Under the pieces are notes generated by a model that was not told the DNA's origin, did no database searches, and saw only the letters and a list, made by a program, of their open reading frames with translations. 64,000 nt of DNA from Chryseobacterium pennipullorum. Lineage in GTDB: Bacteria; Bacteroidota; Bacteroidia; Flavobacteriales; Weeksellaceae. The DNA lies in the NCBI RefSeq assembly GCF_003384725.1, contig NZ_QNVV01000002.1, positions 372,001 through 436,000 of the forward strand. Direction: 5' to 3'. The position numbers and the translations under genes were made by a program. Positions 11,281-13,539 of the stretch are shown piece after piece (the stretch's first letter is position 1; each line of letters opens with the position of its first letter).

Positions 11281-11874
11281 ATGAGACATTTAATCATCTA
11301 CGCACATCCTAATGAAAACAGTTTAAATCATAGTCTTTTAAATACTGTTATTGAAAATCTTGAATCCCAGGATCATGAAATCAGAATCAGGGATTTGTAT
11401 ACAATCGGATTCAACCCCATTCTTTCACTTGCTGATATGCAGGGTCAGCGAATGGGACAAGTTTCCGATGATGTGAAGCTGGAACAGGAGCACATTCTCT
11501 GGGCAGAGCAGATTACCTTTATCTATCCTATCTGGTGGACCGGGCTGCCGGCAATTATGAAAGGATATATCGATCGGGTGTTCAGCTATGGTTTTGCTTA
11601 TCGCTATGACCAGGGAATACAGAAGGGATTACTCAAAGGAAAAAAAGCAGTGATCATCAATACACACGGAAAATCTGTTGAAGAATATGAGCAGACAGGA
11701 ATGGATAAAGCATTGAGCTTAACTTCAGACGCCGGTATTTTTATTTATTCCGGTCTGGAAATCATCCGTCATTTCTTTTTTGACAAAGCCGATAAAGCAA
11801 CTCCGGAAAATGTTAGCATCTGGAAAACACAAATCACCAATACCTATTCGCAACCTGCTTTGAATCTCAAATAA
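11281..11874 (+). CDS. NAD(P)H-dependent oxidoreductase (flavodoxin-like fold)
   Basis: The 197-residue protein opens MRHLIIYAHPNENSLNHSLL, the phosphate-binding start of the NQO1/KefF/MdaB group of FMN or FAD quinone reductases. The central signature is FIYPIWWTGLPAIMKGYIDR with VFSYGFAY just after it, which lines the isoalloxazine ring. These soluble enzymes make two-electron reductions of quinones or electrophiles. An AraC-type regulator precedes it. Its reading frame stays open for about 50 more codons after the TAA, an oddity noted separately. Confidence 0.85.
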   Translation: MRHLIIYAHPNENSLNHSLLNTVIENLESQDHEIRIRDLYTIGFNPILSLADMQGQRMGQVSDDVKLEQEHILWAEQITFIYPIWWTGLPAIMKGYIDRVFSYGFAYRYDQGIQKGLLKGKKAVIINTHGKSVEEYEQTGMDKALSLTSDAGIFIYSGLEIIRHFFFDKADKATPENVSIWKTQITNTYSQPALNLK

Positions 11875-12140
11875 AAGAAAGAAACCATTCATAATGATAA
11901 TCAAAATCTTACCTACAATACTTATCACAATCCGTACGCTTATAAAAAAGCAGTATCCCACAGTTTTGAGATCTTCGCATTTTATTTCTCCACCGTGTAT
12001 TTGTGGCATGGAATTCGCTTCAAAAATGGCAAGTAAAATTGTTTTGAACCATTATTTTAAACCATTAGGATCAGTCACCGGTCTAGTTTTTCTTAAACAA
12101 ATCTTGTTTTGACCCTGTCTGCCTCTTAATGGTTTAAATA
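11875..12140 (+). other. Intergenic region with an inverted repeat, upstream of the tyrS leader
   Basis: No gene is called here. A frame continuous with the upstream oxidoreductase stays open from its stop to about 12032 but has no ATG. Perfect 12-nt inverted repeats TTTAAACCATTA (12056-12067) and TAATGGTTTAAA (12127-12138) lie 59 bases apart, immediately upstream of the leader promoter. They could be a loop-forming operator or chance in AT-rich DNA. Confidence 0.4.
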
Positions 12141-12166
12141 TTGGAATCATAAAAACCGTATCTTTA
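12141..12166 (+). promoter_or_regulatory. Probable promoter of the tyrS leader transcript
   Basis: TTGG (12141) and TATCTTTA (12159-12166) resemble the -33 and -7 elements, though the last base of the -7 box differs from TAnnTTTG and the spacing (15 nt) is a little short. A transcript would begin around 12171, a few bases before the leader ATG at 12175. Confidence 0.45.
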
Positions 12167-12174
12167 CAGGGCAG

Positions 12175-12273
12175 ATGAAACATCTTAACAGCATATTACG
12201 CCTTCCTTTCTTCAGTGAGTATTATACCCCGGCCTATTGTTCGGGAAGATTTTCTATAGCTGTAATTCGATAA
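12175..12273 (+). CDS. Putative tyrosine leader peptide of the tyrS attenuator
   Basis: A 32-codon ORF begins just after the predicted transcription start and ends 66 bases before tyrS. It encodes aromatic residues in a cluster, LPFFSEYYTPAYC: Phe12-13, Tyr16-17 and Tyr21, with Tyr codons at 12220-12225 and 12235-12237. The Tyr codons sit at the edge of a segment (12235-12245) that can pair with the 5' arm of the downstream terminator. This is the geometry of a ribosome-stalling leader peptide, where shortage of Tyr-tRNA would stall translation and prevent termination before tyrS. No Shine-Dalgarno is visible, as usual here. It is a prediction from sequence. Confidence 0.65.
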   Translation: MKHLNSILRLPFFSEYYTPAYCSGRFSIAVIR

Positions 12274-12306
12274 AAATAATCTAACATATATAGAGCCCGG
12301 ACAGTA
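12235..12306 (+). promoter_or_regulatory. Antiterminator pairing of the tyrS attenuator
   Basis: TATTGTTCGGG (12235-12245) can pair over 11 consecutive positions with CCCGGACAGTA (12296-12306), with two G-U wobbles. The upstream strand mimics the 3' arm of the terminator (TATTGTCCGGG, 12305-12315), so the two structures are mutually exclusive. Confidence 0.6.
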
Positions 12307-12321
12307 TTGTCCGGGCTTTTT
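12294..12321 (+). terminator. Attenuator terminator directly before tyrS
   Basis: AGCCCGGACA and TGTCCGGGCT form a perfect 10-bp stem with loop GTAT, followed by four more T residues. It ends 18 bases before the tyrS ATG and after the leader ORF, so it lies inside the tyrS transcript and not at the end of the previous gene. Confidence 0.8.
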
Positions 12322-12339
12322 CATTTTAAATAATTCAAT

Positions 12340-13539
12340 ATGATTACTACATTACAAGAAAACGTGGCCATCATCCTGCCGGATAATGGATTAGAAGAAA
12401 AACTAAACCAGGCTCACAAGGAAAACAGAAAACTAACAATTAAACTTGGATTTGATCCGACAGCTCCTGATCTGCATCTTGGGCATGCAGTGGTGCTTAA
12501 AAAGCTGAAACAGTTCCAGGATCTGGGACATCAGATTGTTATTGTTGTAGGGAGCTTTACGGCAAGAATCGGTGATCCCACAGGAAAAAATAAAGCAAGA
12601 AAACCACTAAGTGCTGAAGATGTACAGCACAATGCGCAAACGTATATCAACCAGCTATCCAAGGTTATTGATGTAGAGAAAACAAAAATTGTTTTCAATT
12701 CCGACTGGCTAGATGCTCTCAGCTTTTCAGAAGTGATACAACTGCTTTCTAAAGTGACTGTAGCACAATTGATGCACCGTAATGATTTTAATAAAAGATT
12801 TACAGAGAATACGCCTATTGCTATGCACGAGCTGGTATATCCTGTTCTCCAGGGTTTTGATTCCGTAAAAATTGAATGTGACATTGAGATGGGAGGTACC
12901 GATCAGCTTTTCAACTGTACCATGGGTAGGCAATTACAGGAAGTTCACCACATGCCGGCCCAGATCGTTATGTGTATGCCACTTTTGAAAGGTCTTGATG
13001 GAAAGGAAAAAATGAGCAAATCCCTCAATAATATTATCGGACTCACCGATGAACCTAATGAAATGTTTGGAAAAACCATGTCTATTCCGGATGCTTTGAT
13101 CGAAGAATTTATCGAGCTGACTACGGATTTTTCCCTGAAAGAAAAGACTGATCTTAAAGCAAGAATCAAAAACGGAGAAAATCCGATGGTCATCAAAAAA
13201 CTAATTGCCAAAAATATCATCAGCCAATACCATGACGATATGGCTGCTGAAAATGCGGAGCTCTTTTTTATCAATCAGTTTCAGAATAAAAATTTTGAAG
13301 AAAAAATCTATGAACCGGTTCATATCAGTACTCTTGTGCATTGTAAGCATAAAGTGTCCTTACTTGAACTTTGCCATCAGCTAAAAAATGACCTCAGCAA
13401 ATCCGCTGTCAGAAGATTAATAGAAAGTGGCGGCATCCAGATTAACAGTCTTAAAATGATCAATCCTGATGAAGAAACCGAGCTGAAGCCCCAGACTAAA
13501 ATAAAAATTGGAAAAAGAGCATTCTTTGAATTGGTATAA
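12340..13539 (+). CDS. tyrS: Tyrosyl-tRNA synthetase, TyrZ-type
   Basis: The 399-residue class I synthetase joins tyrosine to tRNA-Tyr in the cytoplasm. The HIGH-type motif HLGH is at residues 46-49 within FDPTAPDLHLGHA, and KMSKS is at 224-228. The tyrosine pocket segment is DIEMGGTDQLFN. The C-terminal 65 residues form an S4 RNA-binding domain. Length and the FDPTAPDLH signature match the shorter TyrZ-like branch, not the 430-residue TyrS branch. This raises the possibility that it is a second, inducible enzyme. It is preceded by a leader ORF and attenuator, the strongest regulatory signal in the window. Confidence 0.93.
   Translation: MITTLQENVAIILPDNGLEEKLNQAHKENRKLTIKLGFDPTAPDLHLGHAVVLKKLKQFQDLGHQIVIVVGSFTARIGDPTGKNKARKPLSAEDVQHNAQTYINQLSKVIDVEKTKIVFNSDWLDALSFSEVIQLLSKVTVAQLMHRNDFNKRFTENTPIAMHELVYPVLQGFDSVKIECDIEMGGTDQLFNCTMGRQLQEVHHMPAQIVMCMPLLKGLDGKEKMSKSLNNIIGLTDEPNEMFGKTMSIPDALIEEFIELTTDFSLKEKTDLKARIKNGENPMVIKKLIAKNIISQYHDDMAAENAELFFINQFQNKNFEEKIYEPVHISTLVHCKHKVSLLELCHQLKNDLSKSAVRRLIESGGIQINSLKMINPDEETELKPQTKIKIGKRAFFELV

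Follow-up and report, generated by a model that had tools for sequence, protein, structure and literature searches.

A putative tyrosine-codon transcription attenuator with a constrained leader peptide upstream of an accessory tyrosyl-tRNA synthetase gene in Chryseobacterium

We analysed a 64,000-nucleotide stretch of the Chryseobacterium pennipullorum genome (contig NZ_QNVV01000002.1, positions 372,001 to 436,000; hereafter the window, whose own numbering and forward strand apply to every feature described here), in which a gene for an accessory tyrosyl-tRNA synthetase (TyrRS) of the TyrZ type is preceded by a short open reading frame (ORF) and a terminator. The evidence argues, at a probability that we put at roughly 85%, that this leader is a ribosome-mediated transcription attenuator of the tyrosine-codon type, to which the nascent leader chain probably contributes. 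This reading is based on the anatomy of the leader, its conservation, the spacing of its parts, translation of the ORF as judged from codon substitutions, and selection on the N-terminal part of the peptide; from these we infer where transcription starts, that the ribosome stalls and RNA polymerase reads through, what the inducing signal is, and that the peptide tunes the stall from within the exit tunnel.

The leader ORF (12175–12273), read directly from the sequence, has 32 codons and encodes MKHLNSILRLPFFSEYYTPAYCSGRFSIAVIR*; it lies where a preliminary description of this DNA had placed it and is conserved in relatives. Its putative control codons are Tyr16–Tyr17 (12220–12225). Segment 1, CCCGG (12228–12232), found by folding and a terminator scan, can pair with segment 2, GTTCGGG (12239–12245), which alignment and geometry point to as the antiterminator 5′ strand and which resembles the terminator 3′ arm; together segments 1 and 2 are predicted by folding to form a weak hairpin (12228–12245), the candidate 1:2 protector. 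Segment 3, AGCCCGGACA (12294–12303), is the terminator 5′ arm in the alignment of leaders, and CCCGGAC within it (12296–12302), being complementary to GTTCGGG, would also serve as the antiterminator 3′ strand. Segment 4, TGTCCGGGCT (12308–12317), is the terminator 3′ arm by alignment and terminator scan; behind it, a T-run reaches 12321 and stops 18 nt short of the tyrS ATG at 12340. The terminator had been described at 12294–12317, 18 nt from the ATG, and there we found it. The scan of 11870–12400 returned 2 sites compared to a mean of 0.2 in shuffled sequences, folding of bases 12222–12325 gave z = −3.46, and the leader structure goes beyond chance because it is conserved across relatives. 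A check of relatives that had been set beforehand found the leader ORF, its Tyr codons, and a terminator all present, with the antiterminator core kept and one of its pairs changed on both sides.

In the mechanism that we propose, transcription would begin just upstream of the leader ORF and a ribosome would translate the leader at once. When Tyr-tRNA is plentiful, this ribosome would pass codons 16–17, cover segment 2, and go on to the stop codon during the synthesis of segment 3, which would then form the terminator with segment 4, leaving tyrZ off. When Tyr-tRNA runs short, because tyrosine is lacking or the housekeeping TyrRS is poisoned, the ribosome would wait at Tyr16–Tyr17 with its front edge just before segment 2 and segment 1 hidden beneath it. 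Segment 2 would thereby be able to pair with segment 3 while segment 4 has yet to be synthesized, and RNA polymerase would continue into tyrZ.

To model ribosome position, we folded the RNA of 150 distinct leaders as far as segment 3 with a ribosome footprint in place. The ribosome front edge was set 13 nt beyond the first A-site nucleotide, as is the convention in toeprinting, and segment 2 was taken as the first G[TC]TCGG within nt 53–81 of the ORF. Segment 2 started at nt 64–68 of the ORF in 150/150 leaders, just beyond a ribosome at codons 16–17. With the ribosome stalled at codon 16 or 17, the predicted probability of the middle antiterminator pair exceeded 0.5 in all 150 leaders; with stalls at codons 18, 19, and 21, it did so in 136, 2, and 0 leaders, respectively. 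Because the antiterminator prediction collapses from codon 19 on, codons 16–18 are, in this model, the last stall positions that leave segment 2 free. Tyr is encoded at codon 16 in 148/148 leaders, at codon 17 in 146, and at codon 18 in 45. Tyr codons had been described as lying immediately 5′ of the antiterminator segment and at its start; those before it, Tyr16–Tyr17, are conserved and rightly positioned, whereas codon 21 is not conserved, encoding Tyr in 79/148 leaders, and a stall there is predicted to cover segment 2. Tyr16 (12220–12222) is TAT in 148/148 leaders, and Tyr17 has 25 synonymous changes. Two variants were seen: locus L235 (genome G319) reads SEYLLP, with one Tyr at codons 16–17, and in locus L236 (genome G317) the ORF ends together with segment 2.

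The two pairings were examined in an alignment of 53 diverse leaders. In the terminator, 97.5% of cells are paired and six pairs show double changes. In the antiterminator, a 6-bp core is paired in 53/53 leaders; one core pair is U-A in 31 leaders and C-G in 22, and another is U-G in 28 and U-A in 25. There were 22 double-change cells in the antiterminator compared to 9.0 in shuffles, and 0/500 shuffles reached as high a count. Covariation thus supports the antiterminator, but on few events. An 11-position antiterminator, joining 12235–12245 to 12296–12306, had been put forward; its 6-bp core stands, but the seventh pair is broken in 21/53 leaders.

Several results weigh against the attenuator reading. 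Two of five covariation measures, the number of antiterminator pairs with a double change (1) and the number of further pair types (3), were not above shuffles, and the U-A/C-G switch needs just two changes on the tyrZ tree. In the geometry model, stalls at Phe12 or Phe13 were also predicted to antiterminate, in 124/150 and 123/150 leaders, respectively, and the truncated transcript formed the antiterminator in 68/150 leaders with no ribosome and in 42/150 with a ribosome at the stop codon. The 1:2 protector was predicted in 80/108 genus leaders, and the segment-2 base that we tested was unpaired in 31 of the 42 others; by eye, the Tyr codons of many non-genus leaders could pair with the AATAATA that follows, as a candidate pairing. 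In 2/148 leaders, just one of codons 16–17 encodes Tyr (Tyr-Asp in L109 and Tyr-Leu in L235), and no leader of this kind was found in the 420 nt upstream of pheA in the window genome. Finally, when the full transcript was folded at equilibrium with a ribosome at codon 17, the terminator was favoured in 149/150 leaders. Two competing structures had been claimed upstream of tyrS, and both are present and conserved, but they are unbalanced at equilibrium even with the stall. Because equilibrium favours the terminator despite the stalled ribosome, any switch must be kinetic, and because the 1:2 protector is patchily predicted, termination in the fed state would rest on ribosome position and kinetics. 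Attenuators of the trp and his type generally work by timing.

The dominance of the terminator at equilibrium in 149/150 leaders, together with a terminator hairpin more stable than the antiterminator duplex in 136/150, would also fit a constitutive terminator, at which most transcripts stop, with tyrZ expression low and constant and a segment 2 whose complementarity is incidental. That explanation strikes us as highly improbable: the 6-bp complementarity is kept in all 53 aligned leaders though segments 3 and 4 vary, the Tyr codons stand at a fixed distance, and the ORF is conserved.

Attenuation by a translating ribosome depends on translation of the leader ORF, for which codon substitution provides the evidence. 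Changes were counted by parsimony on the tyrZ tree in 148 leaders, with an expectation that weights transitions two to one. Codons 2–17 have undergone 81 nonsynonymous and 235 synonymous changes, whereas ~240.7 of these 316 would be expected to be nonsynonymous without selection. The two other frames were not depleted (279/353 and 329/362 changes nonsynonymous). Because nonsynonymous changes are depleted in the frame of the leader ORF and not in the other two, the ORF is evidently translated. Constraint at the amino-acid level, seen both in codon substitution and in the nonsynonymous-to-synonymous ratio (pN/pS), extends over codons 2–15 (12178–12219) and affects K2, L4, N5, I7, L8, R9, L10, P11, F12, and F13, with positions 3, 6, 14, and 15 less constrained. 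L8, P11, and F13 show 22, 27, and 12 synonymous changes, respectively, and no other kind, and R9 shows 17 plus one other. Pairwise pN/pS was 0.159 for codons 2–15 and 0.105 for codons 4–13 across 150 leaders (0.085 and 0.058, respectively, across 107 genus leaders), compared to 1.04 for codons 18–25 (1.05 in the genus). In three leaders (L024, L054, and L073), single-base deletions past Tyr17 shift the frame and the RNA segment is retained. Judged from this pN/pS contrast and from deletions that spare the RNA segment, the leader is kept as peptide before Tyr17 and as RNA after it. A long-range stem within the ORF, GTCTTCC/GGAAGAC, looked good in single sequences; 5/7 of its pairs are unpaired in more than one-tenth of the 53 aligned leaders, and we dropped it as a cause of the peptide conservation because its pairs are not kept.

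In the usual picture of an attenuator, selection is confined to the control codons and the RNA segments, although membership of the class does not require this. Here it is not so confined, since codons 2–15 are constrained as peptide. This constraint upstream of the control codons is a new element and appears to mark a variant among leader-peptide attenuators.

Two other leaders of the window genome served as controls. By eye, hisG is preceded by the leader MKPTFLALHHYHHHLC, with HHYHHH (locus L268), and trpE by the leader MFKMNNNIWWWLSNSSSGLEVLSCC, with WWW (locus L270), each followed by terminator-like sequence, the same layout of control codons and then terminator as in the tyrZ leader; because this genome has both, a leader-peptide device is not foreign to the lineage. 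We compared 31 hisG loci (the 30 best-scoring plus the genome's own), of which 30 have the his leader and L274 does not, and 51 trpE loci (the 30 best and 20 picked for diversity; L270 and L303 are one and the same gene), of which 50 have the WWW leader; the remaining locus, L349, is short and ends at a contig end. No Rfam family reached its gathering score in the his and trp leader loci. Codons 2–8 of the his leader have 12 nonsynonymous and 8 synonymous changes, compared to 14.0/20 nonsynonymous expected, and a pN/pS of 0.29. For the trp leader, pN/pS was 0.79 before WWW and 0.92 after it. The tyrZ leader differs from both, at 0.085–0.159 over codons 2–15, but only the trp contrast is strong, because changes in the his sample are few and the his ratio is lowered as well.

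The pattern of constraint, with pN/pS low before the Tyr codons and ~1 over codons 18–25 while trp leaders give 0.79, is what might be expected if the leader were mainly an arrest peptide, whose MK.LN.ILRLPFFS.YY chain stalls on a small ligand such as free tyrosine or a drug, with Tyr-tRNA secondary. For a stall at codon 16, moreover, the constrained residues would lie ~11 residues or fewer from the peptidyl-transferase centre. We regard this as unlikely. The Tyr codons sit exactly where a stall uncovers segment 2, and since the gene makes Tyr-tRNA, sensing a shortage of its product has a simple logic; we know of no ligand; and some constraint may be usual, as the lowered his ratio (0.29, from 20 changes) indicates. 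A combination appeals to us more, although we hold it at a little under even odds: a hybrid sensor in which a Tyr-codon attenuator is coupled to a conserved nascent chain (K.LN.ILRLPFF..YY) acting in the exit tunnel, such that the ribosome would stop at Tyr16–Tyr17 on a mild Tyr-tRNA shortage, or respond to a TyrRS inhibitor, and so bring on the spare TyrRS. If true, a trp-type attenuator and an arrest peptide would be joined in one leader that is inherited and moves with its gene.

Selection at the amino-acid level could also arise if the first 17 residues were a small trans-acting protein, conserved for reasons unrelated to attenuation, and the trp leader peptide peTrpL of Sinorhizobium offers a precedent in the available part of its report (PMC7298713). 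We give this explanation very little credence, because what follows Tyr17 shows no conservation as peptide and has lost the frame in several species, and because the sole orphan leader found without tyrZ (genome G013) has decayed.

The attenuator reading places the leader immediately behind its promoter. The element TATCTTTA (12159–12166), found by eye 8 nt upstream of the leader ATG, resembles TAnnTT[TG]n, which we take to be the Bacteroidota −7 promoter consensus. Such an element occurs within 20 nt of the ATG in 141/150 distinct leaders, and 4–9 nt before it in 139 of these. TTG is found 17–23 nt upstream of the −7-like element in 84/150 leaders, compared to 1.4% in shuffles. In the window, a TTG at 12141–12143, also noted by eye, is a possible −33 element, but its spacing is 15 nt, and relatives mostly have 19–21 nt. 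Of the −33/−7 promoter in the preliminary description, the −7 half therefore fits and the −33 half is weak. Because the −7-like element sits so near the ATG, the 5′ untranslated region of the leader mRNA is probably minimal, and this mRNA may be (nearly) leaderless.

The gene behind the leader (12340–13539) encodes a product of 399 amino acids that matched TIGR00234 with 337 bits (cut-off 113.8) and is closest by sequence to the solved structures 6bqy, 6byq, and 1h3e. By eye, it contains HLGH and KMSKS, which we take to be class I signatures. The window genome has a second, housekeeping TyrRS, 30% identical and on a different contig, and the TyrZ-type label given earlier was borne out by its presence; in the region upstream of that housekeeping gene we saw, by eye, no leader and a promoter-like sequence near the ATG. 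Housekeeping TyrS is found in 173/173 genus genomes, and the tyrZ-type gene in 117/173 (E ≤ 1e-100). In an even sample of the order, 22/395 genomes have tyrZ, every one in Chryseobacterium, and in an even sample of the class (305 genomes) only the window's own genome does (E ≤ 1e-80). On these counts, tyrZ is an accessory, patchily distributed gene. A plasmid home for it was sought and not found; two records had short matches within tyrS.

In the genus, the leader precedes tyrZ in 116 of the 117 genomes that carry the gene, and in the remaining one (G156) the locus is cut by a contig end. A leader ORF lies upstream in 110/110 genus loci, starting with ATG in 109 and with GTG in L003, and six of seven further genus genomes with tyrZ have the leader (G146, G157, G154, G160, G048, and G135); that of G135 is whole on one contig and partial at the end of the tyrZ contig. 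The leader was also found in 18 strong-match genomes from other genera of the family and, by pattern, in 80/80 named loci among the best 80 of 190 relatives, 23 of which were also read; the named genera among these best 80 are Chryseobacterium, Weeksella, Flavobacterium, Arenibacter, Gelidibacter, Oceanihabitans, Vaginella, and Faecalibacter. Over all loci, some genomes being represented twice, 245/251 have the leader, and the six that do not are the housekeeping gene, three terminator-only matches, and two contig ends.

Leader and gene probably travel together. In the tree, tyrZ of two members of the genus, L105 (genome G076) and L172 (Chryseobacterium tagetis), nests with tyrZ of Vaginella, Gelidibacter, Arenibacter, and Oceanihabitans, and the leaders of these two loci have the same form as the leaders of those genera, a form found in Flavobacteriaceae. 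Because tree placement and leader form agree, we suggest co-travel, and horizontal transfer of the L105 and L172 cassette is probable.

Among known systems, the E. coli trpL, hisL, pheL, and pheM leaders consist of a short ORF with clustered control codons, 1:2, 2:3, and 3:4 segments, and an intrinsic terminator before the gene. The tyrZ leader resembles them in its control codons, alternative segments, and terminator, but it has Tyr codons, would control an accessory TyrRS, has weak predicted 1:2 pairing, has a conserved peptide upstream of the control codons, and probably lies on a nearly leaderless mRNA. Among arrest peptides, TnaC stalls with free tryptophan. In the tyrZ leader, as for TnaC and arrest peptides in the available part of PMC8429421, nascent-chain sequence may matter for expression control; the Tyr codons of the tyrZ leader point instead to a shortage of aminoacyl-tRNA.

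Another parallel is tyrZ of Bacillus subtilis, which in the available part of PMC9437257 is likewise a second TyrRS gene beside a housekeeping one, with a T box among the controls on its transcription. A T box or another known RNA family might by this precedent control the Chryseobacterium gene as well, but we give that next to no weight: neither the window nor L001, L173, or L240 has a match at gathering score to any Rfam family, the T box included, and even the best of 25 sub-threshold matches listed fall short of half their gathering scores; His_leader, Thr_leader, Trp_leader, and trpB are among these 25. This agrees with the earlier suggestion of a leader-peptide device rather than a T box. 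As proposed here, Chryseobacterium tyrZ would respond to the position of a ribosome on Tyr codons, whereas B. subtilis tyrZ senses through a tRNA-binding RNA (available part of PMC9437257), and the Bacteroidota attenuator would solve the same control problem in a second way.

A 2010 comparative study by Lopatovskaya and others of attenuation of aminoacyl-tRNA genes, cited in PMC4833913, might predict this case. In the titles and abstract openings of the literature matches listed, no Tyr leader peptide of a tyrS gene is named, and a term search of the available part of PMC10219788 returned nothing on one. For Flavobacterium psychrophilum, the available part of PMC9723704 gives clues to attenuation by leader peptides ahead of amino-acid operons, and also describes structured 5′ untranslated regions of aminoacyl-tRNA synthetase mRNAs, with alaS named; the word tyrS is absent from its main text as available. 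Bacteroid-trp and Flavo-1 are listed in the available part of PMC2864571.

The attenuator reading predicts the conditions for synthesis of a second TyrRS that is still poorly understood. Amino-acid-level conservation ahead of the control codons gives a clear, testable sign that the nascent peptide may join what is usually regarded as a codon-and-RNA device. The frame-shifted natural leaders can serve as controls for this, as can the his and trp leaders found in the same genomes.

Away from tyrZ, weak matches to the leader model occur in 233/320 genomes (E ≤ 0.01), and those listed at model positions 87–150 cover the terminator end only. Four such sites were read (L223, L224, L251, and L267) and rejected as leaders; they have no leader ORF and are ordinary terminators, L251 being at most a relic. 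The leader-like terminator of L251 lies behind an oxidoreductase gene resembling the window's gene at 11281–11874, in a genome (G080) with no tyrZ match, and may be an empty or decayed site. Locus L266 (1551–1655, minus strand) holds the orphan, decayed tyrZ-type leader of G013 (MKTLNNILLLTFSPYYYRVIFARR...), in which the 3′ half of the terminator has seemingly been lost; that genome also has no tyrZ match, and the orphan is probably the relic of a lost cassette. In L222 (genome G090), the leader is followed by a tyrZ match over residues 1–86 only, reflecting either a truncated gene or an assembly break.
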